Below are positions 2,240 to 57,678 of a stretch of 64,000 nucleotides of DNA, piece by piece (the first letter of the stretch is position 1; every line of letters starts with the position of its first letter). The stretch comes from an uncultured Poribacteria bacterium (lineage in GTDB: Bacteria > Poribacteria > WGA-4E > WGA-3G). Position numbers and translations under genes: made by a program. Below the pieces are notes generated by a model. It was not told where the DNA came from, did no database searches, and saw nothing but the letters and a program-made list of their open reading frames with translations. The stretch spans positions 3,277,200-3,341,199 of the forward strand of contig OX639973.1 of assembly GCA_951828385.1 (NCBI GenBank). Direction: 5' to 3'.

Positions 2240-3799
<1,560 letters not shown>

Positions 3800-4929: not shown

Positions 4930-5006
<77 letters not shown>

Positions 5007-8352: not shown

Positions 8353-8357
8353 GAAAA

Positions 8358-11380: not shown

Positions 11381-11385
11381 TAGAA

Positions 11386-12912: not shown

Positions 12913-13128
12913 AGGAGTTTCCAGTGTACCAGTGGCCAGTTAAGAGAAGAAGGAAATGGTTCATAAAAACCCTCTTCTCTGGAAACGGGAAACTGGAAAC
13001 GGGAAACTGACTACTTATACAGATCTGTTTGCTGGGTTAATGGACACAATAATTGAGGTAAGGAAGATGCTAACCTCTTTACTGCGGAGGCTGTTAACTG
13101 TTAACTGGTTACTGGTTACTGACTACCT
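12913..13128 (+). repeat. A/B-gap repeat element, copy 3 (composite)
   Basis: The short hairpin form (12918-13014, with alternating ggaaacg/ggaaact units) is followed at once by a 76-base remnant of a four-helix-bundle gene (13017-13092). That remnant matches 16539-16614 at 75 of 76 positions. A second right arm (13093-13125) with gttaact/ggttact units then runs up to the B3 ATG. This copy is an intermediate between the short forms and the full-length copy 4. Confidence 0.88.
13017..13092 (+). pseudogene. Remnant of four-helix-bundle gene 3' end
   Basis: Seventy-six bases identical, except for one G-to-A change, to codons near the 3' end of the intact gene at 16271-16630 (the part encoding TDLFAGLMDTIIEVRKML). 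The rest of the gene is missing. It shows that copy 3 once held the full element and lost its interior. Confidence 0.88.
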
Positions 13129-14553: not shown

Positions 14554-14559
14554 TACAAA

Positions 14560-16053: not shown

Positions 16054-16058
16054 AGGAG

Positions 16059-16671
<613 letters not shown>

Positions 16672-39528: not shown

Positions 39529-39570
39529 ACGGATTTCCTTCATTTTTCTTTTTTCAAGTATCATTTTCTG

Positions 39571-41790
39571 TTAGTTACTAAACGCATTCGCAACAATCAC
39601 CAAATCAAGGATATTGACGACACCATCACTATTCAGATCGGGGCCTGTTTCACCGAAAGCATTAGCAACAATGACCAAATCCAAGATATTCACAATGCCA
39701 TCGCCATTGAGATCGGCAACGTTGATTTTCAGATACATCTCACCATCGAGATCGGGGATTGTGTGTTCAATGCCGGTGATACCGCTTTCAACACCCGTAG
39801 TTTCCATCGGTAACGTAATCGTCTGTACTTGTCCGCTTCGGTTATAGACTGCCCAACCGTTGGTGAACTCGCGGATGAAGATGCCGTCGCGGTTATCGTA
39901 AAGCTGCCCTTTTGTTTCAGCACCGCCGATAGGACGACCGAGATCGGCATCCCAGAAATCATACCAGATATGTTCGTTATCTTCCTCACCTCTATTGTAA
40001 ACCACATAGGCATCCGAATGCGTGAGGGCGAGTGTCGTAAAGACACGCATCCATTTTTGATTGATTGGGCTGTTTGGATGTTCTGTTCCAATTCCATACC
40101 CTTCTACAACATTGACTTGCGGGTACCGTAAGTTTGCTTCGTTCCATTGCAGTGCATTTTCCAGAATGGAAAGGTCCTCATAATTATAGTATCTGCCAGG
40201 CTCTCTAACAAACTCTACAAGAGATCCGTTTATGAGTTCCGAAAGACTTTCCATTTTTGAGGCACCCGCGTTAACAATAATTATGAAATCGTCTGGCACA
40301 CGAGCACGAATTTCACTGAAAATGTGGATAACAGCTGCCTCAATTTCTTCAGAAGAGGCTTTAAGGCTATCACGATCATCTATTGATACGATACGACCGG
40401 GACCTCCGGCAAAGTTATCAATCATAATACCATCAAAAAGACCACAAGTTGCTATAGCGACCCCTTGTCTTATCAAAATTTCTTGAACTTCAGGGTCAAC
40501 TATATTAAGATAAGATTGGCTGTCGAGATTGACCCGATTTCCCGCCCGGTCTGTCATCCAATACTTGGATTCATCTGGAAATAACGCGCCGCCGGGTTTC
40601 CATGCGAAAAATTCCCACCAATATAAGGAGACGAAATTGGGGTTCCGCGCATGATAATACGCGTGACGCTCCTGTGGGACGTTCTCCTTCAATATTAAAT
40701 CTGCTCCCAGAGTGCTCTTTTGAAAATGTAAGTCTCCGTAGTGGATAAGTCCAGCAAGAAGGAGATCCGGAAACGGCACCGATTCGGGATCTGCATAACG
40801 ATTCAATAACGGTATCCCTTCAAACCAAATTGGACTTACGGCTTGAAAAACAGAAGGGAATGTCCGGGTTGAGATTCGTTCCTCAACAGAAATAATAGAG
40901 AATTCGACAGACTCACACAGGATATCGTATCTGAATTCTATTAAATTTAAACCGAGGAACGGTGTAATATCTTCTACCAAAATTCCTTCAATATTCAGAT
41001 ACCTTAGGACAGGTAAATTCAGTAATGGACTCAGGTCTCGGATAGGGTTGCCTTGAAGCCTGACTTGCACAAGATTTGTCAGATTTTCCAATGTGGATAT
41101 ATCTACGATCTTATTATCGTTAAGACTGAGCTCTACTAATTCAGTGAGGTTTCTCAGGGGCGTTATATCGCTAATCTGATTGATGCCTAAATGCAATGTT
41201 TTCAAGTTAGTTAGTTGTTCAAGGGGTGAAATATCAGAGACACGATTTGCTGTCAAACTGAGTTGTTCAAGTTCAACCAAATCTGATAGCGGAAGTAGAT
41301 TGCTAACTTGATTTTCGCCAAAATGTAAGTGCAATGTTTTTAAGTTGGTTAGTTGTTCGAGCGGCGATATGTCGGAGATACGATTTTCACTCAGGTAGAG
41401 ATCTTTCAAGTTTGTCAGGTTCGCAAGTGGCGAAATATCTGATATTTGATTCTTATGAAGAGATAAACTCGTCAAATTCCCCAAACTTGCCAAAGGTTGT
41501 AAATCTTCGATGTGGTTATCATCCGCGTAAAACTGTTCTAAAGAGACTGCATGCTCTAAGCCGGTTAGATCCTTGACTTGGTTACCCTCAGGAACACCCA
41601 AATACGTTAGCAACCTCAGATGTTCTTTGGTAAGTGGTGTGTGATCGGGGAGTCCAATCTCTGCTCGGAGTGTCTTCCTGATTGCCATCCGCAAATTCGG
41701 ATCGGGGATCCAAACTTCTGCGAAAAGCGGACTGTTTATGATTGTAACAGTGAAGAAAGCAAAAGCCAAAAGACAATTTCTTATTTTCAT
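39571..41790 (-). CDS. Secreted LRR - glycosidase-like - dockerin protein
   Basis: 739 residues from ATG 41790 (MKIRNCLLAFAFFTV) with a signal peptide. The LRR cap VWIPDPNLRMAIRKTLRAE is followed by nine or so 22-residue internalin-type LRRs (to about 310). A TIM-barrel-like domain follows, with LFDGIMIDNFAGGPGR and DFIIIVNAGASKM, and a beta-rich end with KGQLYDNRDGIFIREFTNGWAVYNRSG. Two dockerin-like repeats (DLNGDGIVNILDLVIVANAF) close the protein. Calcium-binding dockerin pairs normally dock to cohesins, none of which is seen here. It lies 43 bases from the next gene's signal start, in the same orientation as its paralogues. Confidence 0.87.
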   Translation of the reverse strand: MKIRNCLLAFAFFTVTIINSPLFAEVWIPDPNLRMAIRKTLRAEIGLPDHTPLTKEHLRLLTYLGVPEGNQVKDLTGLEHAVSLEQFYADDNHIEDLQPLASLGNLTSLSLHKNQISDISPLANLTNLKDLYLSENRISDISPLEQLTNLKTLHLHFGENQVSNLLPLSDLVELEQLSLTANRVSDISPLEQLTNLKTLHLGINQISDITPLRNLTELVELSLNDNKIVDISTLENLTNLVQVRLQGNPIRDLSPLLNLPVLRYLNIEGILVEDITPFLGLNLIEFRYDILCESVEFSIISVEERISTRTFPSVFQAVSPIWFEGIPLLNRYADPESVPFPDLLLAGLIHYGDLHFQKSTLGADLILKENVPQERHAYYHARNPNFVSLYWWEFFAWKPGGALFPDESKYWMTDRAGNRVNLDSQSYLNIVDPEVQEILIRQGVAIATCGLFDGIMIDNFAGGPGRIVSIDDRDSLKASSEEIEAAVIHIFSEIRARVPDDFIIIVNAGASKMESLSELINGSLVEFVREPGRYYNYEDLSILENALQWNEANLRYPQVNVVEGYGIGTEHPNSPINQKWMRVFTTLALTHSDAYVVYNRGEEDNEHIWYDFWDADLGRPIGGAETKGQLYDNRDGIFIREFTNGWAVYNRSGQVQTITLPMETTGVESGITGIEHTIPDLDGEMYLKINVADLNGDGIVNILDLVIVANAFGETGPDLNSDGVVNILDLVIVANAFSN

Positions 41791-41832
41791 ACGGATTTCC
41801 TTCATTTTTCTTGTTTGAAGTGCCATTTTCTG

Positions 41833-43347
41833 TTAGTTACTAAACGCATTCGCAACAATCACCAAATCAAGGATATTCACAATCCCATCGCCGTTGAGAT
41901 CAGAGGTTGTCTTCCCGAGAGCATTAGCGACAATGACTAAATCCAAAACATTGACGACACCATCGCCATTGATGTCGGCGGTTATTCCTGTCTTTAGATA
42001 CATCTCACCGTCTAAATCGGCAATGACATGCCGAAAACTTGTGGCACCGCTCGCAACGCCAGTGGTTTGTGCAATAAAATTGATTTGCTGTTCTGTGCCA
42101 CTGCGGTTATATACTGCCCAACCATTAGTGAACTCACGGATAAAAATGCCGTCAATGTCGTTGTAGGTTTGTGCTTTTGTTTCATTGCCGCCAACAGGGC
42201 GACCGAGGTCGGCATCCCAGAAGTCATACCAGATGTGGTCGTGGTGAGCCTCCCCAATGTAAAATCCACCTCTATTGTAAAGGACATAGCCATCGGAGTG
42301 TGTGAGACTGAGAGTGGTAAAGACGCGCATCCATTTTTGGTTTTCTGGACTATCCGGCGGTTGCATTTCAAGTCCGAAACCTTCGAGACAATTAATCTGT
42401 GGATACCGTAAGTTTTCCTCGTTCCATAGCAATAGTTCTTCTATTAGGACAAGGTCATCGTAATTGTAGTGTCTATGGGGTTGTCTGACAACCTCCATAA
42501 AACTGCCGTTAATATATTTTGTAAAACTTTCTAATTCCCCAGCTCCGATCCCACCGTTAACGAGTATTAGAAAATCGTCTGGCACCCGTTCACGCACCTC
42601 GCTAAAAAGATACACAAGTGCTTCTATAATCTCGGCACCCATTTTCTCGGAGACCCTATTAGGGTCTATACGCCCATAACGGTCATTGGTAAATAAAGTA
42701 AACGAGTCAATCATCATACCATCAAAAAGCCCACAGTTCGCATAATCTACTGTTTGGTTAATAATAATATCTTGAACTTCACGATTGAAAATATTAAGAT
42801 AATATACACCAGGATCTGGATATTCAATCAAACCCCCGTCAATATCCGATCTAAGCCAGAAATCAGGATTGTCTGGATATTGATGTAGTTCACCTACATG
42901 AAAACTGACCCATAACAAAAATATATAATTCGGATTCAGCGCAAGTCTACGTTGATGCGTTGCTTTTGCAATTTCCATATCCTCTACACCTATCTGTCTT
43001 GATAAGCCAGTGAACGGTTGATCCTCGGTAACATGGTGTCTGATAAATGCACGTTCATAGGGCATAAAGTCGCTAAAATGTAGATCATGAACGATAATAT
43101 ATTCATCTTTTGTATATGATTCAAACCATTCCTCAACGTTCATTTCAAAGGTAGGAGCGGGCAAACCATCAACCAAAAGTGGATTCGCTGCTTGAAAAGT
43201 AGATGGGAATGTCCGTGTCAGGATCCGTTCTTCAACGGGTGGCGCAGGAAATTCAACAGTCTGGTCACATATTTGCGCATGATCGTCAGCGTAAAGTAGA
43301 CAGGTGATAACTAAGAGAACAAGGATATAGAAATTAAGTTTTCTCAT
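41833..43347 (-). CDS. Secreted glycosidase-like - dockerin protein without LRR
   Basis: 504 residues, a shorter paralogue. The signal peptide MRKLNFYILVLLVITCLLYAD is of the same type as the protein at 43825. The LRR part is absent: the mature protein goes straight to the barrel-like domain (RILTRTFPSTFQAANP, then LFDGMMIDSFTLF and DFLILVNGGIGAG). Two dockerin-like repeats end the protein (ADINGDGVVNVLDLVIVANAL and DLNGDGIVNILDLVIVANAF). Its ATG overlaps the stop of the PhyH remnant by four bases; AGGAGA precedes it. Confidence 0.87.
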   Translation of the reverse strand: MRKLNFYILVLLVITCLLYADDHAQICDQTVEFPAPPVEERILTRTFPSTFQAANPLLVDGLPAPTFEMNVEEWFESYTKDEYIIVHDLHFSDFMPYERAFIRHHVTEDQPFTGLSRQIGVEDMEIAKATHQRRLALNPNYIFLLWVSFHVGELHQYPDNPDFWLRSDIDGGLIEYPDPGVYYLNIFNREVQDIIINQTVDYANCGLFDGMMIDSFTLFTNDRYGRIDPNRVSEKMGAEIIEALVYLFSEVRERVPDDFLILVNGGIGAGELESFTKYINGSFMEVVRQPHRHYNYDDLVLIEELLLWNEENLRYPQINCLEGFGLEMQPPDSPENQKWMRVFTTLSLTHSDGYVLYNRGGFYIGEAHHDHIWYDFWDADLGRPVGGNETKAQTYNDIDGIFIREFTNGWAVYNRSGTEQQINFIAQTTGVASGATSFRHVIADLDGEMYLKTGITADINGDGVVNVLDLVIVANALGKTTSDLNGDGIVNILDLVIVANAFSN

Positions 43348-43824: not shown

Positions 43825-45825
43825 TTAGTTACTAAACGCATTCGCAACAATCACCAAATCAAGGATATTCACAATCCCATCGCCGTTAAGATCCGGTGTT
43901 GTTTTGCCGAAAGCATTAGCAACAATGACCAAATCCAAGATATTGACAATACCATCACTGTTGAGATCAGCGACCTCTCCAATGCGCTTCAAGTAAATTT
44001 CGCCATCTAAATCTGGTAGGGGGTGGGCGTATCCTTTGATGCCACTTGAAACGGCTGTTGTGCTCTCCGAGAACTCGATCTGCTGTTCCTCACCAGAACG
44101 GTTATAGACCGCCCAACCGTTGGTGAACTCACGAATGAATACACCATTGCGATTATCGTAAAGCTGCCCTTTTGTTTCAGCACCGCCGACAGGATGACCA
44201 AGGTCGGCATCCCAGAAATCATACCAGATATGTTCGTGATCAGGTCCGCCGTGAAATCGCTTACCAGTATTGTAAAGCACGTAACCATCAGAGTGTGTTA
44301 ATCCCATTGTCGTGAACAACCGCATCCAACGTCGGTTGTCGGGACTGTCAGCCGGTTCTGTGCCGATGCCCTCACCTTCCAAACAATTGATCTGCGGAGA
44401 GCGTAGATTTAATTCATTCCAGAGGAGTATATCCTCAATTTCAATGAGTTCGCGATAAGTATAACCTTCTGGATGATCTCTACCAAGTTCCATAAAACTC
44501 CCGTCAACGTATTCGGCATAGGCTGTCGGTCTCGATCTACCAGCATTAATAAGTATCAGAAAATCTTTCCGAACTCGGTTGCGAGCCTCACGCAATATGC
44601 GGGTTGTTGCAGCGATGATTTCTTCATTGGTGTGAGGAAAGACATCTCGTCCAACAAAACCGGTAGCATTCCAAGCAAACCCGTCAATCATAATACCATC
44701 ATAAAGTCCACACTCAGCAATACTCACAATCCGTTCGATTATTATATCTTGTAGCCCTGGGTTCATAAAGTTTACCATTGGCCCGTTGAGAATCTCGCTG
44801 TAGACTATTTGATCGTTGTCATCTTTAAGCCAAAAATCGGAGTTCGGTGGATACCTTGATAACTCGCCACTACCATTAATAATAATGTGTCGAAGGGTAA
44901 CTATATTCGGATTTAGGGCAAGAAGCCTATCACGTTCATCTTGAGCGGCTTCTAAATTACCGCCAACCCGAGTCGCCAAGCCGCGTGTGCTCTTACTCGG
45001 AGTTGTTCGCCAAGCAAGTTCAAAAGTCAGACTGAAAGCGAGATCATGATAATCTATACCGCCATGTTTAGGGAGCCCCGCAATTATGAGGCTATCCCAT
45101 GCTTTAAAAACAGATGGAAACGAGCGTGTTAGGATACGCTCTTCAACTGGTAAAGACGGTATATTACAAAGCCTATTATACTCAAATACGGTCAGATTCA
45201 AATGCTGCAATGGACTGAAATCCGAGACAGGATTATCCACAATATCTAACACTTCCAACTGGCTAAGATCTTTTAAAGGACTGACATCTGTGATCAAATT
45301 ACTACCAAGGATTAACTTTTTTAGATTTTTCAATCCAGCAAGCGGAGCTACATCCGAGATTTGACAACCTGCCAAATCTAAGTCTTCTAAATGGATAAGG
45401 TTTGAGACTGGGCTGAGGTCGCTTATCGGATTGAATGCACAGTTCAAATATACAAGGGAGGTCAAAGGCTCTAATGGCGATAAATCGGAGACTTGATTGC
45501 CAAGCAGAACCAATCCACGTAATTTTGTTAAGTTTCGCAGCGGCGTTATATCTTCTATGAGATTAATTCCGAGATTGAGACCGACTTCAAGATTTTGTGC
45601 GAATTCCAATCCTTGTATTGAACGAATCCCTCTGTGTTGTGCCTCAAGATGTATCAGTGATTTGATATTCTCTTTTGTCAAGGGCACTTCATCGGGTAAC
45701 TCAAGCTTTTCTCGAATCGCTATGCGCAGGTTCGCATCCGGCATCCAGTGTGGTTCTTCTGCGCCAGCGTAAAGTAGACATCCAATCGCTAAGAGGATAA
45801 GGATACAGCAGTTAAGTTTTTTCAT
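43825..45825 (-). CDS. Secreted LRR - glycosidase-like - dockerin protein
   Basis: 666 residues. The signal peptide is MKKLNCCILILLAIGCLLYAG and the cap is WMPDANLRIAIREKLELPDE. About six LRRs follow to residue 220 (for example LKNLKKLILGSNLITDVSPL), then the barrel-like domain with LYDGIMIDGFAWNATG and DFLILINAGRSRP near 410-450. A KGQLYDNRNGVFIREFTNGWAVYNRSG segment and two dockerin-like repeats end the protein. GGAGA precedes the ATG. The gene directly follows the sigma-LRR gene and shares its LRR cap type, so the two probably belong to one transcription unit. Confidence 0.87.
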   Translation of the reverse strand: MKKLNCCILILLAIGCLLYAGAEEPHWMPDANLRIAIREKLELPDEVPLTKENIKSLIHLEAQHRGIRSIQGLEFAQNLEVGLNLGINLIEDITPLRNLTKLRGLVLLGNQVSDLSPLEPLTSLVYLNCAFNPISDLSPVSNLIHLEDLDLAGCQISDVAPLAGLKNLKKLILGSNLITDVSPLKDLSQLEVLDIVDNPVSDFSPLQHLNLTVFEYNRLCNIPSLPVEERILTRSFPSVFKAWDSLIIAGLPKHGGIDYHDLAFSLTFELAWRTTPSKSTRGLATRVGGNLEAAQDERDRLLALNPNIVTLRHIIINGSGELSRYPPNSDFWLKDDNDQIVYSEILNGPMVNFMNPGLQDIIIERIVSIAECGLYDGIMIDGFAWNATGFVGRDVFPHTNEEIIAATTRILREARNRVRKDFLILINAGRSRPTAYAEYVDGSFMELGRDHPEGYTYRELIEIEDILLWNELNLRSPQINCLEGEGIGTEPADSPDNRRWMRLFTTMGLTHSDGYVLYNTGKRFHGGPDHEHIWYDFWDADLGHPVGGAETKGQLYDNRNGVFIREFTNGWAVYNRSGEEQQIEFSESTTAVSSGIKGYAHPLPDLDGEIYLKRIGEVADLNSDGIVNILDLVIVANAFGKTTPDLNGDGIVNILDLVIVANAFSN

Positions 45826-45894: not shown

Positions 45895-48795
45895 CTACCT
45901 CGACTCTATAAGGTTCAATCCAATGAGGGGTGTAAAATCTGTTATCGGATTTCCTTGAACCTGCAATGTCCGCAACGCAACTAACCGCGCAAGGGGGCTG
46001 ATGTCTTCAATGGCATTACCGCTAATATCCAAAACATGAAGCCTCTTCAACTTAGCAAGCGGACGGATATCCGAAACCTTACTATTTGCCAGCCAAAGTC
46101 GCTCCAAGTTGATGAGGTTCGTCAGAGCGTATAGGTCAAGATTTGGCGTGTTTGGTGTTATCCCCGAAATATTCAAGACCTTAAGGTTCATCAAAGTCGT
46201 CAGTGCGTATAGGTCTGTTATCGAATTCCGACTCAGGTTAAGTTCTCTGAGGTTCGTCGCAAACTCTAAACCACGAATGTTATTGATACCTTTGTTGGAG
46301 ATATTTAGCTCCTGCAGTTGTAGCATGTTCTCTTTTGTAAGCGGCACATTCGGTAGGAGTCCAACCTCACCGCGTACTGCAATGCGCAACGCAGCATCCG
46401 GCATCCACACTTCGGCAGCATCAGTTTGCTGATTCATCTGTTGGGTAACATCGTATTTGAAGTCCGTGAGATTCAGTTCGGCAATCGGTGTGAAATCTGT
46501 TATCGGATTTCCCTGAACCCACAAAGTATGCAGCGCAGTTAACTCCGAAAGCGGAAGGATGTCTTCAATGTCGTTATATCTAATATCCAAGATGTGCAGG
46601 TTCGTCAACCCCGACAACGGACGGATATCCGAAATACCGCTGTATTCCAGACAGATGTATTCTAAGCTGGTGAGACGCGCTAATTGACGCAGGTCTATTA
46701 GCGAACAGTGACTCGCGTCGAGTTCTCTCAGATTCAATCTGTAGAGTGGGCGCAAATCTGTGATTGGGTTCCCTTCAATGGATAATGTCCGCAGTTTTGT
46801 CAATCCCGAAAGCGGCGTTATATCCAAAATGCCATTCCTGTGCAGAATGAGCCTCTCTAAGTTCGTTAAATTCGTCAGCGGATGGAGCTCAAGGTTTGCC
46901 ATCTGTAGAGAGACATCTCCGATATGTAAAACCTTAAGTTTCGTTAAGTTTGCAAGCGGACGTAAATCTGTGATTGGATTCCGACTCAGGTGGAGCTCTC
47001 TGAGATTCGTCGCAAACTCTAAGCCTGTGATATCAAGGATGCCTTTGTCGTGCACATCAAGATAGTCCAACCTTAACATCTTTTCTTTCGTTAATGGGAC
47101 CTCCGGTAGGAGTCCGAGTTCCCCTCGAATTACGGCGCGCAATACTGGATCTGGCATCCATGCTTCAGAAGGCTGCGTTTGTGATGCGTGATTTGCTACT
47201 CCATCGTATTTCAGGTCTGTAAGATGCAATTCAGAGAGTGGGCGCAGGTCTTTTATCGGATTCCCCTTGATCCATAATATTTGCAGATTCGTCAGTCCTG
47301 TAAGCGGACTAAAGTCTCTAATATGGTTCTCTGTAAGGATCAGATGCTTTAGGTTTCTCAAGTCTGCGAGCGGAGCCACATTTTGCAAGTCGTTGTCAAA
47401 AAGGTCTAATTTTTTCAAGTTTACCAGATTCGCGAGCGGACTGAGATCGTCTACATAATTGTCAGCCAAATTCAGGTAAGTCAGGGCAGTCAAGGCAGCG
47501 AGTGGCGATATATCGTTTACTCGGTTATTCCAGAGGCTAAGCCCAGTTAAATGCGTCAGGTTCGCGAGGGGCCTCAGGTCTGCGACTTGGTTACCGCCTA
47601 CATTGAGATAGGTCAGATCGGTGAGCGTAGCGAGTGGTCTTAAGTTGATGATAGCATTCCCCTCATCGCCTAAACGTAAGTCCACTAAATTTTGGGCAAA
47701 TTCCAAGCCCTTTAAATCGGTGATACCTTTTCCACCGGCATGTAGACGCTGCAGCTCGAGCAGCATCTCCTGCGTTAAGGGCACGGCTGCCGGAAGCGCG
47801 AGTTCCTCCCGAACAGCAGCGCGTAACGCTGGATCGGGCATCCATGAGACGGTATCCTCTGGATGCACCTGTGCACCTGGTGCTGAAACTGTTTCAGAAT
47901 CTTGTAATCCGGGGCTATTGGTCTTATGGGTCATGATAGCCCGTCCGGCTTGAGAGTGAAGCGCGGGTTTTGCGTCGGTGTCAAGAACAATAGGTGCTTC
48001 AATGATTTCGATGGTCGGTTCCGATGCTGCCTCAAAACTATAGGGTCTCTGAAATCGTATGAGGTATTTGTTGCTAAGTCCGAGCATCAGCATCACCAAA
48101 ATTGCAGCCACGCCGACGGCGAGCCACGGAATAGGGGATTTTGTAGGGGGCGACGCGATCGGTTTCATATCGGCAATTTTCTGGGTGATGGTTTCTGCAA
48201 GGTCGGTAGAGAGTTGGAAACTTCCGAGCATTTCTTGTATCAAAAGCGTTTCGTCCTGTTGTAAACGGCGTCGTGCCCGCTGCAGGCGGCTGGTAATCGT
48301 GTGCACAGAGACACCGAGAAATCTGCTAATCTCTCGTGTCGTCATTTCACCGAGATAGTAGAGCGTCATGACAGTGCGTTCGCTCTCAGGAAGTTTATCA
48401 ATCAATTTCTTGACAAGCTTCTGGCGATTTTCAACAGATTCAGCCTCGCGTTGCTCTGATATATAACGCGCGTATGCAGATTTATCAACTGCGTCCATAG
48501 CTATCGTCTCCAGCAATTGTAGCCTTGCTTTATTGTTGCGCCGCCAGTTGCTACAGTGCCGACTTGTCATAACATAAAGCCAGCCAGCGAATTGGCGCGG
48601 ATTCTTAAGCGTTGAAAGTTTGTTATAGACTTGGAGGAAAATGTCTTGCGTAACCTCTTCGGCATAGTGGAAATCACCGATCTTCCGCCATGCCAAAGCA
48701 TGTACACTTTTCTGATATTTTCGGACTAAAGCAGTGAAAGCTGCATCATCGCCCGACAAAATTCTGTGGATGAGTTGAACATCTTCTTCTATCAT
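45895..48795 (-). CDS. ECF sigma factor fused to a TM helix and extracytoplasmic LRR domain
   Basis: 966 residues. Residues about 10-90 are sigma region 2 (FTALVRKYQKSVHALAWRKIGDFHYAEEVTQDIFLQVYNKL). Residues about 130-185 are region 4 (LPESERTVMTLYYLGEMTTREISRFLGVSVHTITSRLQRARRRL). A single hydrophobic helix (WLAVGVAAILVMLMLGL, about 224-240) follows, then a linker of about 80 residues. Three LRR modules come next, each led by a cap (WMPDPALRAAVREEL near 320; WMPDPVLRAVIRGEL near 550; WMPDAALRIAVRGEV near 805). The layout implies a membrane-tethered sigma factor with an outside LRR sensor. No separate anti-sigma gene is adjacent. GGAGC precedes the ATG. It heads the collinear LRR-dockerin cluster. 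Confidence 0.9.
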   Translation of the reverse strand: MIEEDVQLIHRILSGDDAAFTALVRKYQKSVHALAWRKIGDFHYAEEVTQDIFLQVYNKLSTLKNPRQFAGWLYVMTSRHCSNWRRNNKARLQLLETIAMDAVDKSAYARYISEQREAESVENRQKLVKKLIDKLPESERTVMTLYYLGEMTTREISRFLGVSVHTITSRLQRARRRLQQDETLLIQEMLGSFQLSTDLAETITQKIADMKPIASPPTKSPIPWLAVGVAAILVMLMLGLSNKYLIRFQRPYSFEAASEPTIEIIEAPIVLDTDAKPALHSQAGRAIMTHKTNSPGLQDSETVSAPGAQVHPEDTVSWMPDPALRAAVREELALPAAVPLTQEMLLELQRLHAGGKGITDLKGLEFAQNLVDLRLGDEGNAIINLRPLATLTDLTYLNVGGNQVADLRPLANLTHLTGLSLWNNRVNDISPLAALTALTYLNLADNYVDDLSPLANLVNLKKLDLFDNDLQNVAPLADLRNLKHLILTENHIRDFSPLTGLTNLQILWIKGNPIKDLRPLSELHLTDLKYDGVANHASQTQPSEAWMPDPVLRAVIRGELGLLPEVPLTKEKMLRLDYLDVHDKGILDITGLEFATNLRELHLSRNPITDLRPLANLTKLKVLHIGDVSLQMANLELHPLTNLTNLERLILHRNGILDITPLSGLTKLRTLSIEGNPITDLRPLYRLNLRELDASHCSLIDLRQLARLTSLEYICLEYSGISDIRPLSGLTNLHILDIRYNDIEDILPLSELTALHTLWVQGNPITDFTPIAELNLTDFKYDVTQQMNQQTDAAEVWMPDAALRIAVRGEVGLLPNVPLTKENMLQLQELNISNKGINNIRGLEFATNLRELNLSRNSITDLYALTTLMNLKVLNISGITPNTPNLDLYALTNLINLERLWLANSKVSDIRPLAKLKRLHVLDISGNAIEDISPLARLVALRTLQVQGNPITDFTPLIGLNLIESR

Positions 48796-48893: not shown

Positions 48894-48926
48894 TTAAAGA
48901 CACATTTTATTGCCGAAAACGTGCAT
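48894..48926 (-). promoter_or_regulatory. Bipartite motif upstream of sigma-LRR gene
   Basis: Minus strand: ATGCACGTTTTC (48926-48915), 10 bases, TGTGTCTTTAA (48904-48894), about 100 bases before the start codon. Both blocks recur exactly upstream of the WD40 gene at 57571. It is a candidate ECF promoter, perhaps recognised by the sigma factor it precedes. Confidence 0.6.
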
Positions 48927-48993: not shown

Positions 48994-50520
48994 TCAGTGG
49001 CGTGGCAGTTTTTTCAAAATGGATTCCGCGGTGTGAACGTAATGTTGTTTTTTCCCATGTTCGGCGACCCACTGTAGATAGCCTCGCGCCATTGAGACGT
49101 TACTCCGATAGTAGTATACCAGCCCGATGTAAAAACTGTATTCCTCGAATCTTCCATAGTGATTCAGCACATGATTATAATTGTTCAATAACGCAATAAG
49201 GAACTCGTCATTCTCGGCATAGAACCTTTCGTTATTCAAGACGTAAGTGGTCCCATCCCACTCGTAGAGGCTTACCCATTCAGGACGTGACCCCATATCA
49301 ATATTGATAGCTATACGGTCAGGAATCTTGATCTCGTAGATGCCATCGTTATCCAAGTCAATATATTCCATAGGATCCTTCCTTCTGGTAGAACTATAGG
49401 CACTGCAGACTGCCTTGAATTCACCGTTCTGGAAAGAAATCACAGCTATACCGTAGGCATGTTCCACCCATAAGTCTAAAATGCCATCTCCCGTCAAATC
49501 CACGATTTCAAAGGAAACATGTGGAAATTCCCATGGACCACTTCCGTAAAATTTTCGGAAGACGAAGGGTGCGCTCTGAACTTTAATGTTTTTCGCTGGA
49601 ACATCCCACGGATAAGCCCGCGAAGCAAAAAGCTTGAAAAGGTCTTTTTTCTTGGGCAACTCGTCTGCTGTATTCTCAGCAATCAGAAGAAACGCTTGGT
49701 TCCATTGCCCCCATTCGACCGATTCGCCTCTTGGCTGAGTAACCATCAGAACAATAGTCTCTTTTTTGGGGGTATCATCAATATTTGCAATGGCTTTCAT
49801 CCGGGTAGTGTAAGAGAGTGTTTCCGGTGGTGGCGTCGCCAAAAACCGATGATATTTTTCACCTTCAGGATCACTCGGGAAATCATAGGGATCGTAAAAA
49901 TGACACTCGACATCGGGAGTTTCTGCAAGTTTTTGTCCGGTCACTGGATAGTTGTTGAAGACTTCCTTGAACTCGCCGTTTTCAAAAGAGATGAGGGCGA
50001 CACCATAAACGGATTCTACCCAGACATCTAAGGTGCCATCGCCCGTTAAATCCACGAGTCTAAAGGCGGTATCGGTCGGTTGTTTCAAGACAAAGGGTGG
50101 CTCATAAAGTTCAATAACTTTTGCGGGGACCTCCAACTGATGCGTCCGCGAATCATAAAGTTTGAATAAATCCTTTTTCTTCGGACCCGAGTATGATTGG
50201 GTGTCCGTAATGAGGAGAAACGCTTGGTGCCCATTGCCGGACGGTGCCCGCGGTTTTGTATCAACAACGATTAGCACAATGGTCTCTTTTCCGGGTGTAT
50301 CATCAATATTTGCGCTGGCTATCATCTGGGTATGGTAATCGAATCCTTCCGGTGGCGGGTTAGGGAAAAAACGGTCATACCTCTCCTCATGAAAACGGGC
50401 TCTGGAGTGATACGTGACTGCAGAAGTCGTCGTTTTGGCGGTCTCCGCATTTATGACAAGAGAACTAAGTATCAGCAAAATAGCAAATCCAAGAAGTGTG
50501 GTTTGAATGTGTTGCTTCAT
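48994..50520 (-). CDS. Secreted VCBS/FG-GAP-like protein, copy 5 (two-unit)
   Basis: 508 residues with a signal peptide (MKQHIQTTLLGFAILLILSSLVINA). It contains two copies of the roughly 180-residue unit seen in the neighbours: each starts with a (Y/H)xRF-type segment, then DTPxKETIVLM, LTGDGTLDVWVE and ISFQNGEFK. The calcium-binding-like motifs LTGDGILDLWVEHAYG and YIDLDNDGIYEIKIPDRI resemble FG-GAP/VCBS beta-propeller repeats. A helical C-terminal segment (YSFYIGLVYYYRSN) ends the protein. Last gene of the five-gene tandem array. Function unknown; probably cell-surface binding. Confidence 0.82.
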   Translation of the reverse strand: MKQHIQTTLLGFAILLILSSLVINAETAKTTTSAVTYHSRARFHEERYDRFFPNPPPEGFDYHTQMIASANIDDTPGKETIVLIVVDTKPRAPSGNGHQAFLLITDTQSYSGPKKKDLFKLYDSRTHQLEVPAKVIELYEPPFVLKQPTDTAFRLVDLTGDGTLDVWVESVYGVALISFENGEFKEVFNNYPVTGQKLAETPDVECHFYDPYDFPSDPEGEKYHRFLATPPPETLSYTTRMKAIANIDDTPKKETIVLMVTQPRGESVEWGQWNQAFLLIAENTADELPKKKDLFKLFASRAYPWDVPAKNIKVQSAPFVFRKFYGSGPWEFPHVSFEIVDLTGDGILDLWVEHAYGIAVISFQNGEFKAVCSAYSSTRRKDPMEYIDLDNDGIYEIKIPDRIAINIDMGSRPEWVSLYEWDGTTYVLNNERFYAENDEFLIALLNNYNHVLNHYGRFEEYSFYIGLVYYYRSNVSMARGYLQWVAEHGKKQHYVHTAESILKKLPRH

Positions 50521-50571
50521 GCTTTTTGTCTCCGAATAAAAGCGTTGATGATTCTGTGTATTGGTTGGTTT

Positions 50572-51591
50572 TCATCTTCGCAAGGGTGGTGCTTTTTTCA
50601 AGAGAACTGATGCCGCTTGAATATAATCGTTATTCTTCGCATGTTCCAGAATCCACTCTAAATCCGAGGGTGACTTGCTGCCACGATAGTAGTATAGCAA
50701 CCCTAAATAGAACCTATATGTTTCGCAGTAGCTGATAAATGCCCCTCGTTGAAGTAGCTGATAATTATACTCGCTCAATAACTCAATGAGGAAATCGTTA
50801 TTCTCGGCATAGAACCTTTCGTTACTCAAGACGTAGGCGTTCCCATCCCATTCATATAGACTCATCCATGGTAGGTGTGGTAATCCCGGAAGATCCTCAA
50901 TATATATGCTGTATGGAATCTTTATTTCATAGCTGCCGTCATTATCGAGATCAATGTACTCAGGACCAGGCAGCATCCCGGGAACCGTATAGGAGCTGAA
51001 GATTTCCTTGAATTCGCCATCCTGAAATGAAATCACAGCCACGGCATATCCAAATTCAACCCAGACGTCTAAAGTGCCATCGCCTGTTAAATCGACGAGT
51101 CTAAAGGAAACATCGGGAGGCTTAAGAGCATCTTTTGGCGGTTGCGTGAAGATGAACTGTGGGCTACGAAGTTCAACAGTTTTCGCTGGCACCTCCAACG
51201 CATAAGTCCCTGAATCGAAAAGTTTGAAAAGGTCTATTTTCTTTGAAAAACCGGCTGCTACGGTGTCAGTAATCAGGAGATACGCTTGTTCCCAGTTGCC
51301 GGGGACTGATGCCTCGTTTGCACCAACAATCATTAGAACAGCAGTCTCTTTTTCAGGTGTATCATCGATATTTGCAATGGCTTTGAGCTCGGTAGAGTAA
51401 TAAAGTTCTTTCGGTCGAGGAGCGGGTAAAAATCGTTGATATATTCGCCCCATAGGATGATACCCATAATGAAACCGTCGATACCTGACATCAGAAGTTT
51501 CGGATATTGGCGGGTCAGCACTCACCGCCGCACTCGACAGCAAGAAGCAGATAGCCAGTCCAAAAAGTATGGTTTGAAAATGTTTTTTCAT
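50572..51591 (-). CDS. Secreted VCBS/FG-GAP-like protein, copy 4 (one-unit)
   Basis: 339 residues with signal peptide MKKHFQTILFGLAICFLLSSAAVSA. It has a single unit: ELKAIANIDDTPEKETAVLM, DLTGDGTLDVWVEFGY, ISFQDGEFKEIF, YIDLDNDGSYEIKIPYSI and LPWMSLYEWDGNAYVLSNERFYAEN. The C-terminus again has a short helical stretch (YRFYLGLLYYYRGS). It differs from its neighbours in having only one repeat unit and a PPKDALK insertion. GGGAGAC lies before the ATG. Spacing of 52 bases to the next gene suggests co-transcription. Confidence 0.82.
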   Translation of the reverse strand: MKKHFQTILFGLAICFLLSSAAVSADPPISETSDVRYRRFHYGYHPMGRIYQRFLPAPRPKELYYSTELKAIANIDDTPEKETAVLMIVGANEASVPGNWEQAYLLITDTVAAGFSKKIDLFKLFDSGTYALEVPAKTVELRSPQFIFTQPPKDALKPPDVSFRLVDLTGDGTLDVWVEFGYAVAVISFQDGEFKEIFSSYTVPGMLPGPEYIDLDNDGSYEIKIPYSIYIEDLPGLPHLPWMSLYEWDGNAYVLSNERFYAENNDFLIELLSEYNYQLLQRGAFISYCETYRFYLGLLYYYRGSKSPSDLEWILEHAKNNDYIQAASVLLKKAPPLRR

Positions 51592-51643
51592 GTTTTTGTC
51601 TCCCGTTGGGTCTGTTAGATGTCAGACGGGTTGGGTCTGTTTT

Positions 51644-53185
51644 TTAGTGGTGTGTCAATTTTTTCAAGATCGATTCCGCGGCTTCAATGTAATCATCGTT
51701 CTTCACATTTCTGACGACCCATTGTAGATATTTTTGCGCCATTACTGCGTTGCCGCGATAGTAGAAGACTAATCCTATGTAGAAACTGTATTCATCCTGT
51801 ATTGCATAATAATGCCAAAAATTATACTTTTCCAACAACCGAACTAAGAACTCGTCATTGTCAGCATAGAATCTTCGGTTATTCAAGACGTAGGTGGTGC
51901 CGTCCCACTCGTAGAAACTCATCCATTTCAGAGCCGCTGCGCCAGGGGCACCCTTGATATGTATGCTATCAGGAATCTTGATTTCGTAGATGCCATCGTT
52001 ATCTATATCAAGGTATTCTATCGGGCCCTCCCTTCTGGTAGAACTATAGGCACTGCAGACTGCCACAAACTCACCATCTTGGAAAGAAATCACAGCCACA
52101 CCGTAGGCATGTTCAACCCATACGTCTAAAATGCCATCACCCGTCAGATCAACAAGGTCAAAAGAGACCCCGCCAAAACTCCAAGGAGAACCTCTGTGCG
52201 TCCATTCTCGGAAGACGAACGGTGTACGCTGCGCTTCAATAGAAACTCTCGCTGGTACATCCAAATCATGAGTCCCTGTATCAAAAAGTTTAAAAAGGTC
52301 TTTTTTCTTCAGGATGTCTACCTCGTTTTCAGCAATGAGGAGAAACGCTTGAACCCATTCGCCGTGGGGCCCGTTCCTTCCGGTCTCAGCAATCATTAGA
52401 ACAATCCTCTCTTTTTCAGGCGTGTCATCCACATTTGCTGTGGCTATCATCCGAGTATCGTAATAGAGTCCTTCCGGAGCCGGAGCAGACAAAAAACGGT
52501 GATACAATCGTCCCTGAGGCTCGATTGGGGCATCGTAATAATGATATTCGATGTCAGAAGTTTCTGCGAGTTTCTTTTTAGTCACGGTGTAGTTGCTGAA
52601 GACCTCTTTGAATTCACCGTTCTGAAAAGAAATGAGCGCGACACCATAAGCAGATTCCACCCATACATCTAAAGTGCCATCACCCGTCAAATCAATGAGT
52701 CTAAAGGAGACACCGTGCGGTTTCCAAGGCGCATCATTCAGCCGTTCCTTGAAGATAAACGGTGGACTCTGAAGTTCAATGGTTTTCGCTGCTGGAACCT
52801 CCAAATCATAAGAATCCGAATCAAAAAGTTTGAATAAATCTTTTTTCTTCGGGCTGTCTATGTCGGGGTCTGTTATGAGGAGAAATGCTTGAAGCCACTC
52901 ACCGTACGGTGTGTGCCGTTTTGTATCGACAACGATTAGAACAACTTTCTCTTTTTCAGGCGTGTCATTAATATCTGCATCGGCTACCATCCGGGTATGG
53001 TAGCGGAGTTCTTCAGGAGCAACAGAAGGTAAAAAACGGTGATACCTTTCAAGGTCTCGGTAATAGTAATGGTAATACTTGACCTCGGAAGTCGTCGTTT
53101 TGGCAGTCTCCGCATTCACAGCAAAACAACTGAGTATCAGCAAAATAACACATCCAAGAAGTGTGGTTTGAAGAGGTTGTTTCAT
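51644..53185 (-). CDS. Secreted VCBS/FG-GAP-like protein, copy 3 (two-unit)
   Basis: 513 residues from ATG 53185 (MKQPLQTTLLGCVILLILSC), preferred to ATG 53200 because GGGAGAC then lies 6 bases upstream. Two tandem units with DTPEKEKVVLIVVD, LTGDGTLDVWVESAYGVALIS, then DTPEKERIVLMIAE, LTGDGILDVWVEHAYGVAVIS and YLDIDNDGIYEIKIPDSIH. Very similar to the protein at 48994, so the two-unit forms are close duplicates separated by a one-unit form. Confidence 0.82.
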   Translation of the reverse strand: MKQPLQTTLLGCVILLILSCFAVNAETAKTTTSEVKYYHYYYRDLERYHRFLPSVAPEELRYHTRMVADADINDTPEKEKVVLIVVDTKRHTPYGEWLQAFLLITDPDIDSPKKKDLFKLFDSDSYDLEVPAAKTIELQSPPFIFKERLNDAPWKPHGVSFRLIDLTGDGTLDVWVESAYGVALISFQNGEFKEVFSNYTVTKKKLAETSDIEYHYYDAPIEPQGRLYHRFLSAPAPEGLYYDTRMIATANVDDTPEKERIVLMIAETGRNGPHGEWVQAFLLIAENEVDILKKKDLFKLFDTGTHDLDVPARVSIEAQRTPFVFREWTHRGSPWSFGGVSFDLVDLTGDGILDVWVEHAYGVAVISFQDGEFVAVCSAYSSTRREGPIEYLDIDNDGIYEIKIPDSIHIKGAPGAAALKWMSFYEWDGTTYVLNNRRFYADNDEFLVRLLEKYNFWHYYAIQDEYSFYIGLVFYYRGNAVMAQKYLQWVVRNVKNDDYIEAAESILKKLTHH

Positions 53186-53200
53186 GCTTTTGTCTCCCAT

Positions 53201-54207
53201 TTATTCGGATGGCAATTTTTTAAAGATGGATTCCGCGGCTTGAATGTAATGGTCCTGCTTCCCATGTTCAATGATCCATTTTAAATGCCCCGGTGTCTCG
53301 CTGCCCCGATAGTAGGATACCAACCCTAAGTAGAAACGGTATGTCTCACAGTTATAAATAACGCGCCCATGCCGAAGCATCTGATAATTATACTCGCTCA
53401 ATAACTGAATGAGGAACTCGTCATTCTCGGCATAGAATCTCTCGTTATTCAAGATGTACGCGTTTCCATTCCACTCGTAAAGGCTCATCCATGGCAGATG
53501 TGGCGCGCTAGGGACACGGTCAATATTTATACTGTATGGAACCTTGATTTCGTAGCTGCCATCGTTATCTAAGTCAACGTACTCGGCTTCAGATAGAAAT
53601 CCAGGAATGGTGTAGTTGCCGAAGACTTCCTTGAATGCCCCGTTCTGAAACGAAATCACAGCAACACCGTAGGTGGATTCAAACCATACGTCTAAAACTC
53701 CATCACCCGTTAAATCAACGAGTTCAAAGGTGGCATGAGATTGAAGCACATCTTTCGGGGGTTGCGTGAAGACGAATGGCGGGTTCTGAAGTTCAATAGT
53801 TTCCGCTGTGGGGACCTCCAATGCATAAGTCCCCGTATCAAAAAGTTTGAAAAGTGCCTTTTCTTGGGGTTCCGCTGCCTCGGTATTAGCAATGAGAAGA
53901 AACGCTTGGACCCATTCGTCAACATATCTGTACGGTTCTCTCGGCACATCAACAAGTATTAAGACAACGGTCTCTTTTTCAGGTGTATCATCAATATTTG
54001 CGGTAGCCGCCATTCGTGTATTGTAATAAAGTCCTTTTGGGGCGGCGGTAGGCAAAAAACGGTGATACTTTTTCTCCTGATATGAGTAATATCGTTGATA
54101 CTTGACTTCAGGCGTTGTAGTTTCAGGGGACTCCGCATTCACTACAAGAGAACTGAGTATCAGGAAATAGAAAGTCCAAGAAGTGTGGTTTGAAAATGTT
54201 TTTTCAT
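53201..54207 (-). pseudogene. Secreted VCBS/FG-GAP-like protein, copy 2, frameshift in signal peptide
   Basis: The mature part (313 residues from VNAESPETTTPEVKYQ) is complete, with LTGDGVLDVWFESTYG and YVDLDNDGSYEIKVPYSI. The signal peptide starts at ATG 54207 (MKKHFQTTLLGLSI) and then meets a stop. The expected LILSSLVVNAE is in a neighbouring frame about 45 bases in, so one base appears to be missing near 54163-54170. The shift may be a true inactivating mutation or a sequencing error. A GTG start within the mature part would give a protein without export signal. Confidence 0.78.
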
Positions 54208-54257
54208 GTTTTTTGTCTCCGATTCGGTCTGTTAAATGTCAGGCCTTGTTCCACATT

Positions 54258-55289
54258 TCACTGCGGTGGCAATTTTTTCAAAATGGATTCCGCAGCATGA
54301 ATGTAATCTGGCTTCTTAGCATATTTGACCACCGATTGTAGATACCTTCGTGCCATTGCCGTATTGCCGCGATAGTAGAAGACCAGCCCGATGTAGAAAC
54401 TGTATGGCTCGTACCTTCCATATCGAATCAGCGCATAATTATACTGGCGCAATAACTGAATGAGGAACGCGTCATTCTCGGCATAAATCCTTTCGTTATT
54501 CAAGACGTAAGCGGTGCCATCCCATTCGTAGAGGCTCATCCAATGCACATATCGCAACCCAGGAATGTCAATCATAAATATGCTGCGAGGAATTTTGATT
54601 TCGTAGATGCCATCGTTATCCAAGTCAACGTACTCAGGAGAGTGCTCCCTGGAATACGCGTACCCGCTACAGATTTCCTTGAACTCACCATTTTGAAAGG
54701 AAATCACAGCCACACCGCAGTAGGCATGGTCAATCCATATATCCAAAATGCCGTCCCCTGTCAAATCCACGAGTTTGAAGGAAACCCGCTTGGAACGCCA
54801 AGATCCACCTCTCCACAATCCCTCGAAGACGAAGGGTGGGTTACGAACTTCAATGGTTTTCCCCGGAACATCGAAATCATAAACGCCCGCATCAAAAAGT
54901 TTAAAAAGGTCTTTTTTCTTCGGGAGCCCGACTCCTTCAACTTCAGCCTCAGCAATGAGGAGAAACGCTTGGCACCATTCGCGCCACTCTTCTCCAGCCT
55001 CAGCCACCATCAGAACAATAGTTTCTTTTTCAGGCGTGTCATCAATATTTGCTGTCGCTTTCTTCCGAGTGTCGTAAGATGCACCTTGCGGTGCGGGGAA
55101 CTGCAAAAAACGGTGATACTTTCGACCTTCAGGGTCAATTGGAACATCATACCATTTATACTCGACATCAGAATCCGTAGGGGTTTGGGTCTCCGCGTTC
55201 ACTGGAAAAGCACTGAGGATAAGCGAGATAGTAAGTCCTAAAAGGATGCGCTGGATGTGTTTTGACACGATTTTTGTTTTCTTATACAT
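54258..55289 (-). CDS. Secreted VCBS/FG-GAP-like protein, copy 1 (one-unit)
   Basis: 343 residues, the first gene of the array. MYKKTKIVSKHIQRILLGLTISLILSAFPVNA is a signal peptide with a longer charged start than in the other copies. One unit follows: DTPEKETIVLMVAE, LTGDGILDIWIDHAYCGVAVIS, YVDLDNDGIYEIKIPRSI and VHWMSLYEWDGTAYVLNNERIYAEN. AGAGGAG lies 8 bases before the ATG. The stop of the WD40 gene is 95 bases upstream on the same strand, so both may share the promoter near 57650. Confidence 0.82.
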   Translation of the reverse strand: MYKKTKIVSKHIQRILLGLTISLILSAFPVNAETQTPTDSDVEYKWYDVPIDPEGRKYHRFLQFPAPQGASYDTRKKATANIDDTPEKETIVLMVAEAGEEWREWCQAFLLIAEAEVEGVGLPKKKDLFKLFDAGVYDFDVPGKTIEVRNPPFVFEGLWRGGSWRSKRVSFKLVDLTGDGILDIWIDHAYCGVAVISFQNGEFKEICSGYAYSREHSPEYVDLDNDGIYEIKIPRSIFMIDIPGLRYVHWMSLYEWDGTAYVLNNERIYAENDAFLIQLLRQYNYALIRYGRYEPYSFYIGLVFYYRGNTAMARRYLQSVVKYAKKPDYIHAAESILKKLPPQ

Positions 55290-57571: not shown

Positions 57572-57644
57572 GTGTTGATTCCTCTTTTTCAGACAGAAAG
57601 TTTTGGTTAAATAACCGAAACGGAACATATTTTTCCTCCTGCCA

Positions 57645-57678
57645 TTAAAGACACAATTTTGGGGTGGAAAACGTGCAT
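57645..57678 (-). promoter_or_regulatory. Bipartite motif upstream of WD40/VCBS cluster
   Basis: Minus strand: ATGCACGTTTTC (57678-57667), 11 bases, TGTGTCTTTAA (57655-57645), 74 bases before the WD40 start. It is identical in both blocks to the motif at 48894-48926. The remaining intergenic bases to 57888 show no further gene. Confidence 0.6.

Follow-up and report, generated by a model that had tools for sequence, protein, structure and literature searches.

ECF sigma factors are usually controlled by a separate anti-sigma protein. One gene in the 64,000-nucleotide stretch of DNA from an uncultured Poribacteria bacterium analysed here (the window) joins such a sigma factor to a membrane helix and a large LRR domain, which raises the question of what a sigma factor of this build senses and which genes it controls. 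An earlier note, made from the sequence alone, had pointed for comparison to the C-terminally extended ECF factors of Planctomycetes; the genome itself belongs to Poribacteria. The parts of the protein are as follows.

45895..48795, minus strand: sigma-TM-LRR gene, 966 aa (ORF, Pfam)
48529..48729, minus strand: sigma region 2, residues 23-89 (Pfam Sigma70_r2)
48262..48414, minus strand: sigma region 4, residues 128-178, including recognition helix 165-172 (Pfam Sigma70_r4_2; -35 covariation)
48169..48255, minus strand: conserved cytoplasmic linker with predicted helices, residues 181-209 (family conservation, AlphaFold2)
48076..48132, minus strand: sole transmembrane helix, residues 222-240 (hydropathy, structure prediction)
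47980..48057, minus strand: conserved outer juxtamembrane segment, residues 247-272, RFQxPYSFxAxSExTxEII[ED]AP (conservation)
47191..47844, minus strand: LRR module 1 and cap, residues 318-535 (Pfam, AlphaFold2, Foldseek)
46441..47160, minus strand: LRR module 2 and cap, residues 546-785 (Pfam, AlphaFold2)
45898..46410, minus strand: LRR module 3 and cap, residues 796-966 (Pfam, AlphaFold2)

The gene reads and translates as a single unbroken ORF with an ATG start. Pfam places sigma regions 2 and 4 in the product (Sigma70_r2 and Sigma70_r4_2) and region 3 is absent, which is the composition of ECF (sigma-70 family group 4) factors; the NCBIfam model TIGR02937 (sigma70-ECF) also exceeds its cut-off. 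Residues 222-240 form the only hydrophobic segment (Kyte–Doolittle 2.45), and the LRR part covers approximately 650 residues (318-966), with 13 LRR_4 stretches across the protein (Pfam, E 1.4e-78). The single-polypeptide architecture that the earlier note had read by eye is thus borne out by Pfam and hydropathy, and the helix recurs throughout the family, with a hydropathy of at least 1.8 in 127 of 132 members and at least 1.6 in 131. An AlphaFold2 model from a 14-row alignment (mean pLDDT 74.7) has three LRR blocks, mostly at pLDDT 80-95 and each headed by a WMPD...LR helical cap, with residues 181-314 below 50 and a sigma part of only moderate quality; the sigma part is weaker in this second job because the alignment had 14 rows, and is confident in a run with a deeper alignment. 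Internalin A gives the best PDB matches of the LRR part (Foldseek, E 1.3e-26), so the label 'internalin-like' given to the three capped modules is right. The array has the internalin (class 1) fold, but the NCBIfam internalin models score 263 bits against a cut-off of 1600, and the protein, a membrane-anchored fusion to a sigma factor, is unlike a secreted surface internalin.

A frameshift or assembly join between the sigma and LRR parts, named in advance as what would undo the case, is rejected. An orthologue (L091) also has 966 aa, its N-terminal 310 aa being 95% identical, the frame is kept in orthologues from other Poribacteria assemblies, and dN/dS is low in every part of the gene (0.08-0.24 overall, 0.08-0.12 in the sigma part).

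Sigma-TM-ectodomain proteins made in one piece form a large family in Poribacteria, to which this protein belongs; its genome holds 56 copies. They are found among 94 sigma homologues, 74 of them close (at least 42% identity), and share a common cytoplasmic part, helix and outer juxtamembrane segment. Residues 185-300, the linker, helix and juxtamembrane segment, used as a query match 55 places, all within these 56 genes. Conservation at residues 241-270 (3.0-3.3 bits) lies within the range of the sigma domains and is lower in the helix (2.7 bits). AlphaFold2 predicts the juxtamembrane segment to be disordered, and a folded domain at this position is unsupported (pLDDT about 30-41). In the members scanned, Pfam reported no anti-sigma domain (zinc finger or FecR), the linker included, and the Pfam and NCBIfam matches shown for the 966-aa protein include no RsgI domain. 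Beyond the juxtamembrane segment the proteins diverge into BNR/sortilin, WD40, LRR (some with GHL15), Kelch, PD40 and other ectodomains. The LRR ectodomain that the earlier note had singled out is therefore real, but is one of about ten types on the same chassis, and another type is commoner.

These ectodomains have been exchanged at orthologous loci between assemblies. Among 238 pairs with at least 78% identity over the sigma-TM part, which are not independent of one another, 65 carry different ectodomains, and in 58 of those homology breaks at residue 254-325, just past the juxtamembrane segment. For example, the sigma parts of a Kelch protein (L149) and a BNR protein (L150) are 91% identical; homology ends at residue 312, and the DNA downstream of the differing ectodomains is homologous over 5.6 kb; a second BNR–Kelch pair (L139 and L159) has homology on both flanks. 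Such swaps at the same locus in related genomes suggest a large, recombining set of one-protein receptors.

Most members follow a common ECF-type promoter of the form ATGCA...GTC. Because a scan with an exact CGTC recovered only 23 of the 56 genes and missed the one in the window, we used a weight matrix instead, which places two sites in the window.

48894..48926, minus strand: ECF-type promoter of the sigma-TM-LRR gene, ATGCACGTTTT ... GTCTTTAA (weight matrix; 0 expected in the window)
57645..57678, minus strand: another promoter site of this type, ahead of the WD40 gene (weight matrix)

Across 1.05 Mb of fetched loci the matrix finds 76 sites, with none in shuffled or reversed sequence; 40 precede sigma-TM genes and 12 precede related sigma genes without the helix. 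A matrix trained only on other genomes still puts 40 of the 56 genes above the shuffled 95% level. Twelve of the 56 have no site within 300 bp, seven of which have one further upstream, and only 34 of 76 sigma-TM genes from other genomes have a site.

For five of the six variable -35 positions the sigma residue that covaries most is 168, 169 or 172, on a chance scale where 10 of 124 eligible residues fall in 160-178; residue 83 is the top partner of positions 6-9 of the -10 window. This covariation is in part shared ancestry: the best-testable pair yields only 6 independent contrasts, of which 5.2 agree in direction and 0.0 disagree (median p 0.06). The two remaining pairs yield 4 and 3, and all these numbers of contrasts are too small for significance. 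Because the -35 bases covary mainly with the recognition helix, it is probable that a fused sigma recognises the promoter of its own gene. The covariation at a shared promoter argues that these sigmas do control transcription, as the earlier note suggested. The neighbouring operons were compared through 14 of the 18 sites before other genes, leaving out two near sigmas without the helix (749388 and 5389965) and two without an assigned sigma (2302870 and 6058820). Thirteen of the 14 agree with the residue-168 rule (random sigma mean 9.1; equalled in 7 of 2,000 trials); the residue-172 rule is unsupported there (9 of 14, random mean 7.1, equalled in 456 of 2,000). Most of these 14 sites, each before the gene preceding a sigma, may have been inherited along with the sigma.

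The genes around the two promoters in the window, which run on the same strand from the WD40 gene to the sigma gene, are the following.

55385..57628, minus strand: WD40 protein of 747 aa that looks secreted, encoded by the gene next to the second promoter (Pfam)
48994..55289, minus strand: five FG-GAP-like paralogues between the WD40 and sigma genes, at 48994-50520, 50572-51591, 51644-53200, 53201-54142 and 54258-55289 (ORFs, Pfam; FG-GAP_3 above its cut-off in two of the five)
43825..45825, minus strand: LRR-GHL15-dockerin protein, 70 bp downstream of the sigma gene (ORF, Pfam)
41833..43347, minus strand: GHL15-dockerin protein (Pfam)
39571..41826, minus strand: LRR-GHL15-dockerin protein (Pfam)
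37129..39564, minus strand: LRR-GHL15-LRR protein (Pfam)

The product of the gene at 43825-45825 has an apparent signal peptide, read by eye, in agreement with the observation that the sigma gene adjoins secreted proteins with the same type of LRR. This arrangement is common in the LRR class, where an LRR homologue is among the first two same-strand non-sigma genes downstream in 19 of 30 cases (shuffled partners, mean 4.1, maximum 10) and upstream in 2 of 28. That an ectodomain always copies the next gene is rejected (BNR 0 of 44, M16-like 0 of 16, WD40 2 of 17); copying is seen in the LRR class and in some single cases. Because the LRR ectodomain often copies secreted LRR(-GHL15) proteins just downstream, the sensor probably shares its ligand with the product that it controls, a relation already proposed for the cellulosome's RsgI sensors.

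We lean towards reading the protein as a one-piece transenvelope receptor, in which a working ECF sigma factor, an inner-membrane helix and the juxtamembrane segment carry an exchangeable periplasmic recognition domain, here the three internalin-like LRR modules. Very probably, judging from the promoter and recognition-helix sequences, each fused sigma or its closest paralogues recognises the shared promoter, and would therefore autoregulate its own operon and adjacent operons with the same site; here these would be the operon that includes the downstream LRR-GHL15 genes and the WD40/FG-GAP-like operon. We hypothesize that the sigma is kept inactive at the membrane while the ectodomain is unoccupied, that on ligand binding either the juxtamembrane segment or the helix would become accessible, first to a site-1 protease and next to RseP, and that the freed sigma would associate with RNA polymerase. 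Proteolytic release is possible, since S41 proteases and an M50 protease resembling RseP are encoded in the genome. The genome also encodes Omp85 proteins (9 matches, 8 above the cut-off); the cell is therefore diderm, and an inner-membrane anchor puts the ectodomain on the periplasmic side. A surface ligand, as first proposed, would thus have to get into the periplasm. Taken alone, the charge rule is ambiguous about this topology: over the 132 members it favours a cytoplasmic N terminus in 36, is equal in 29 and opposes it in 67 with 15-residue flanks, and gives 88, 25 and 19, respectively, with 20-residue flanks.

Alternatively, and in our view unlikely although worth serious consideration, the sigma may work unreleased at the membrane, its activity altered by clustering or conformation of the ectodomain, with the effect that transcription of secreted-protein genes takes place beside the export machinery. 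Region 4 is linked to the helix by approximately 40 residues, which gives room for a tethered sigma to bind RNA polymerase, the nearby controlled genes look secreted, and no site-1 protease motif was recognised. However, the genome encodes an RseP-like protease, and in the published accounts cited below cleavage by Prc and RseP activates IutY, a fused sigma that has been characterised, and a truncated SCO4117 acts as activated. It is less probable still that envelope proteins have captured the sigma-TM part as a module that promotes its own expression. The sigma would then drive its own operon only, and the ectodomain would be an effector that senses nothing. Most promoters do stand before the sigma genes themselves, and ectodomains often resemble neighbouring secreted proteins, some with a GHL15 enzyme domain; yet this leaves the conserved juxtamembrane segment unexplained and gives no account of why dozens of recognition domains stay covalently tied to a sigma when the downstream genes already supply free proteins. 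A membrane tether could conceivably sequester the sigma, but a role as a non-activating decoy or inhibitor that titrates RNA polymerase or promoters is very improbable, given that recognition-helix residues covary with -35 bases in the promoters before these same genes and that the sigma part is under strong purifying selection. Although every sequence comes from metagenome assemblies, an artefact of assembly, frameshift or gene calling can be practically dismissed, as the sigma-TM-LRR architecture, sought in other genomes, recurs in 27 of 76 complete genes, the module is held by 58 of 58 family genomes and dN/dS is low throughout.

Proteins combining sigma, membrane helix and ectodomain are already known. 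The closest to the receptor that we favour is ECF52 (SCO4117 of Streptomyces coelicolor, which has one copy), described as exclusive to Actinobacteria, in which a sigma, a transmembrane region and an outside carbohydrate-binding domain form one protein; a promoter motif before its own gene suggests autoregulation, and proteolytic activation has been proposed (PMC5826349). The Poribacteria family shares this plan, with an outside recognition domain and own-gene promoter. In ECF52 the membrane region is preceded by an anti-sigma-like zinc finger, of which Pfam finds no example in the Poribacteria members scanned, and a carbohydrate-binding module follows a proline-rich stretch, where the protein in the window has LRR_4 repeats. 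The Poribacteria family differs further in having as many as 56 copies, ectodomains that can be exchanged and a juxtamembrane segment that is conserved. IutY (ECF243, Pseudomonas putida) likewise joins a sigma to a membrane-spanning, outside-sensing part subject to Prc and RseP proteolysis (PMC8999054), but that part is the anti-sigma of iron–siderophore surface signalling, and the Poribacteria members scanned have no FecR match. As described in these papers, ECF52 and IutY come without such a repertoire, exchange or promoter code. The SigI/RsgI systems of Clostridium thermocellum are paralogous and autoregulated, with sigma-specific promoters, intramembrane proteolysis (RIP) by RseP and divergent outside sensors that resemble the secreted enzymes they control (PMC6056542, PMC12203970). 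These, however, are two proteins, a sigma and a membrane anti-sigma, in eight or nine copies with a folded, self-cleaving periplasmic domain, whereas the far more numerous Poribacteria copies are single proteins, without an RsgI domain among the matches shown. ECF57 (WD40 extension) and ECF42 (TPR extension) also carry C-terminal repeat domains, discussed as intracellular interaction domains (PMC8999054); the Poribacteria protein differs in the membrane helix between sigma and repeats.

What distinguishes the family is that sensing, membrane crossing and promoter choice lie in one polypeptide, across dozens of paralogues with exchanged sensors. We tentatively suggest, while holding it short of probable, that sponge-symbiont Poribacteria keep a combinatorial receptor repertoire, in which one sigma-helix-juxtamembrane chassis, in up to at least 54 copies per genome, is recombined at fixed loci with unrelated recognition domains (LRR, BNR/sortilin, WD40, Kelch and enzyme-like) while sigma and promoter co-diversify. 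If so, each receptor would retain its own output through that co-diversification, the repertoire would plausibly read host or neighbour glycans and proteins, and expanded pattern-receptor families would have in it a bacterial counterpart that is coupled to transcription. The family makes testable how a tethered sigma switches on, how many close sigmas are insulated from one another, with the covariation as a readable residue-to-base code, and what use an uncultured sponge symbiont makes of the eukaryote-like repeat proteins on which it spends its genome. Proteins rich in LRR and WD40 repeats have been noted in Poribacteria since 2014 (PMC3909097), and the link to a sigma factor offers a role for some of them.

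The open reading frame at 45895-48795 (-) encodes a single protein of 966 residues, in which Pfam, the hydrophobicity profile and AlphaFold2 bear out what had been read from the DNA: sigma regions 2 and 4, one hydrophobic helix and leucine-rich repeats (LRRs) in one polypeptide.

Residues 23-89, sigma region 2 (Pfam)
Residues 128-178, sigma region 4 (Pfam)
Residues 222-240, sole hydrophobic segment

The protein passes the cut-off of TIGR02937 (sigma70-ECF) and has 13 LRR_4 stretches in Pfam. In the AlphaFold2 models the sigma part is predicted with confidence and residues 225-238 form a helix (94-row alignment), and the LRRs make up three blocks (14-row alignment); the solved structures that best match the LRR model are of internalin A, in agreement with the earlier note's three LRR modules with internalin-like caps. 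A frameshift or assembly join of the sigma and LRR parts, which the note had raised, is excluded by orthologues (L062, L063, L091, L100 and L127, from the fetched loci) with dN/dS of 0.08-0.24 across the sigma, linker/helix and LRR parts; L062 and L063 are covered to residue 810 only, leaving the third LRR module unscored for both, and L092 and L094 were left out of this comparison.

Searched against the same genome (6.66 Mb, one contig), the N-terminal 310 residues give 94 matches. The top 74, at identities of at least 42%, form a close family, and in 56 of these the similarity extends past the helix and across a conserved outer segment (sigma-TM proteins, 440-1283 aa). Residues 185-300 alone retrieve 55 places, every one within the 56 sigma-TM genes, and miss only member m61. 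Conservation of the outer segment, RFQxPYSFxAxSExTxEII, equals that of the sigma domains, and AlphaFold2 has it disordered; it could be a linear motif recognised, for example, by a protease or a partner. No helix is present in the remaining 18 close-family sigmas, which bear other C-terminal parts, including TPR with AhpC/TSA redoxin, M61 peptidase-like and, by eye, beta-clamp-like (L051:12108-15074, L027:12859-14991, L024:3889-5811 and others). Twelve sigma-TM genes of WD40 and BNR types lie in tandem within 50 kb (L001-L004, G000:C1:1510500-1578000), a likely source of recombination.

Residues 185-300 (E<=1e-6, 84 genomes) were found in 58/58 genomes of the same taxonomic family, with 1 to at least 54 copies each, in 9/14 from the order's remaining families (1-3 copies), and in none of 10 from the rest of the class or 2 beyond it. 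The best 79 loci in the genome collection (best 80 of 171) are all from Candidatus Poribacteria metagenome assemblies. The architecture singled out in the earlier note recurs there, 27 of the 76 complete genes being of LRR type.

Ectodomain types of sigma-TM genes, assigned by BLAST against Pfam-typed representatives
Own genome (56): BNR/sortilin-type 25; WD40 18; LRR 4; Kelch, Reg_prop, PD40, CarboxypepD_reg and M16-like, 1 each; 4 more without type
Other assemblies (76 complete, picked by nearness to the N-terminus of the window's protein; 3 of 79, cut genes, excluded): LRR 27; BNR 26; M16-like 16; Kelch 6; without type 1

Eight of the 18 own-genome WD40 genes have as their nearest representative a member that carries an additional N-terminal domain. 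GHL15 matches occur in 8/10 further LRR-class genes scanned, counting L012 (weak, E 0.0018, below cut-off) and L160 (just below cut-off), and these genes resemble the secreted LRR-GHL15-dockerin proteins adjoining the window's gene.

In a tree built from the N-terminal parts of 132 family members, the ectodomain labels need 26 changes, against a minimum of 11 and a shuffled mean of 72, a pattern indicating that ectodomains are inherited yet repeatedly switched. Among 238 gene pairs with at least 78% sigma-TM identity, which are not mutually independent, ectodomains differ in 65; the break in DNA homology falls at residue 254-325 for 58 of these and at residues 334 and 359 for two, and tandem or long homologies make it unreadable for five. 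Three same-locus pairs are the clearest exchanges: L149 (Kelch; in a 5.7-Mb chromosome-level record) and L150 (BNR), with a break at residue 312 and 5.6 kb homologous downstream; L139 (BNR) and L159 (Kelch), homologous over 1.5 kb upstream and 3 kb downstream; and the window's gene and L093, homologous from 2.7 kb upstream to residue 272 and then with a different LRR-type end. L093 resembles member m16 over its length and, because it stops early (732 aa), may be decaying.

An LRR homologue is among the first two same-strand non-sigma genes downstream of 19 of the 30 LRR-type sigmas that have downstream sequence, and upstream of 2 of 28 (shuffled mean 4.1, maximum 10). Downstream of another sigma-TM-LRR gene is a 1303-aa protein with LRRs, a cohesin domain and a FlgD-Ig/Por-type tail (L032:5962-9873 (-)); its neighbours carry type I dockerins, and a cohesin-dockerin assembly in Poribacteria is possible.

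The upstream sequences share TATGCA[AC]... and [CT]GTC[AT][CT]TA, with a TGCA-CGTC spacing of 19 or 20 bases. A weight matrix places a site within 300 bp upstream of 44/56 own genes and 34/76 others (shuffled sequence, 5%), and still of 40/56 own genes when trained on 16 other-genome sites only. Sites above 22 bits in 1.05 Mb of loci number 76 (shuffled 0, reversed 0): 40 stand before sigma-TM genes, 12 before helix-less family sigmas and 18 before other genes, and the last 6 have no gene start nearby. Across the whole genome, two strict patterns have 18 and 20 matches, and their reversed controls 2 and 1. The window holds exactly two such sites (expected 0):

48894-48926, before the sigma gene
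57645-57678, before the WD40 gene heading the adjacent FG-GAP-like run

A remote LRR-GHL15-dockerin cluster (L173) also lies behind a site bearing the window's -35 and -10 letters. By eye, transposase-like ORFs (L173:4258-5383 (-)) break this cluster just past the promoter. The same promoter type precedes many of the 18 helix-less sigmas.

Sigma-promoter covariation was scored as normalised mutual information over 74 genes and 124 eligible sigma residues, with figures inflated by shared ancestry. The top residues for -35 window positions 9-13 are 169, 169, 172, 168 and 168, and for position 14 they are 148, then 175; just 10 of the 124 fall within residues 160-178, which form the second helix of the helix-turn-helix in region 4. 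Residue 83 leads for -10 positions 6-9, and residues 65, 66, 55, 55, 127 and 183 for positions 4, 5, 12, 13, 16 and 17. With G at -35 position 12, K/R stands at residue 168 in 0/23 genes; without it, in 43/51. There are only 4, 3 and 6 independent contrasts, none significant singly and almost none in the opposite direction. Because the recognition helix emerged without structural input, the pattern speaks for a genuine contact, and with it for recognition of each promoter by the gene's own sigma or its nearest paralogues.

The earlier note proposed that the protein could sense a surface ligand. The genome has nine Omp85 matches, eight above cut-off (control set: family present in 7/14 genomes), so the organism is, on its gene content, diderm. 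A domain that follows an inner-membrane helix on its C-terminal side should then lie in the periplasm and not on the cell surface. Apparent signal peptides, judged by eye, start several downstream homologues of LRR-type sigma genes, which speaks for the fused copy lying outside; from the charge rule no clear orientation emerges. The anatomy fits a one-piece receptor, in which a periplasmic recognition domain and helix would be joined to a sigma driving the operon it belongs to and neighbouring ones. The genome codes for an RseP-like M50 protease and has three S41 matches, and RIP of the kind known from IutY would thus be available.

The literature covered (listings and abstracts; subscription papers outside its scope) yielded no Poribacteria sigma-TM family, and neither the 2014 single-cell genome paper on Poribacteria (PMC3909097) nor PMC8546597 uses the word 'sigma' in its main text. 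Sigma-TM-ectodomain fusion as such is known from that literature (ECF52 SCO4117, IutY and ECF48/52/53). The fused ectodomain copies secreted LRR/GHL15 proteins much as the outside domains of RsgI sensors do, which are described there as including carbohydrate-binding and glycosidase domains.

Four further features lie in the window:

2240-3791 (+), complete 16S rRNA gene
4930-5006 (+), tRNA-Ile
5357-18072 (+), eight consecutive same-strand ORFs of 466-508 aa
43344-43649 (-), 101-aa ORF between the first two GHL15 genes

As 23S rRNA has no match anywhere in the 64 kb, the rRNA operon would seem to be split, or its genes unlinked. The 101-aa ORF looks like a phytanoyl-CoA dioxygenase fragment and is probably a remnant. 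The eight ORFs, judged by size only, look like a tandem paralogous family.
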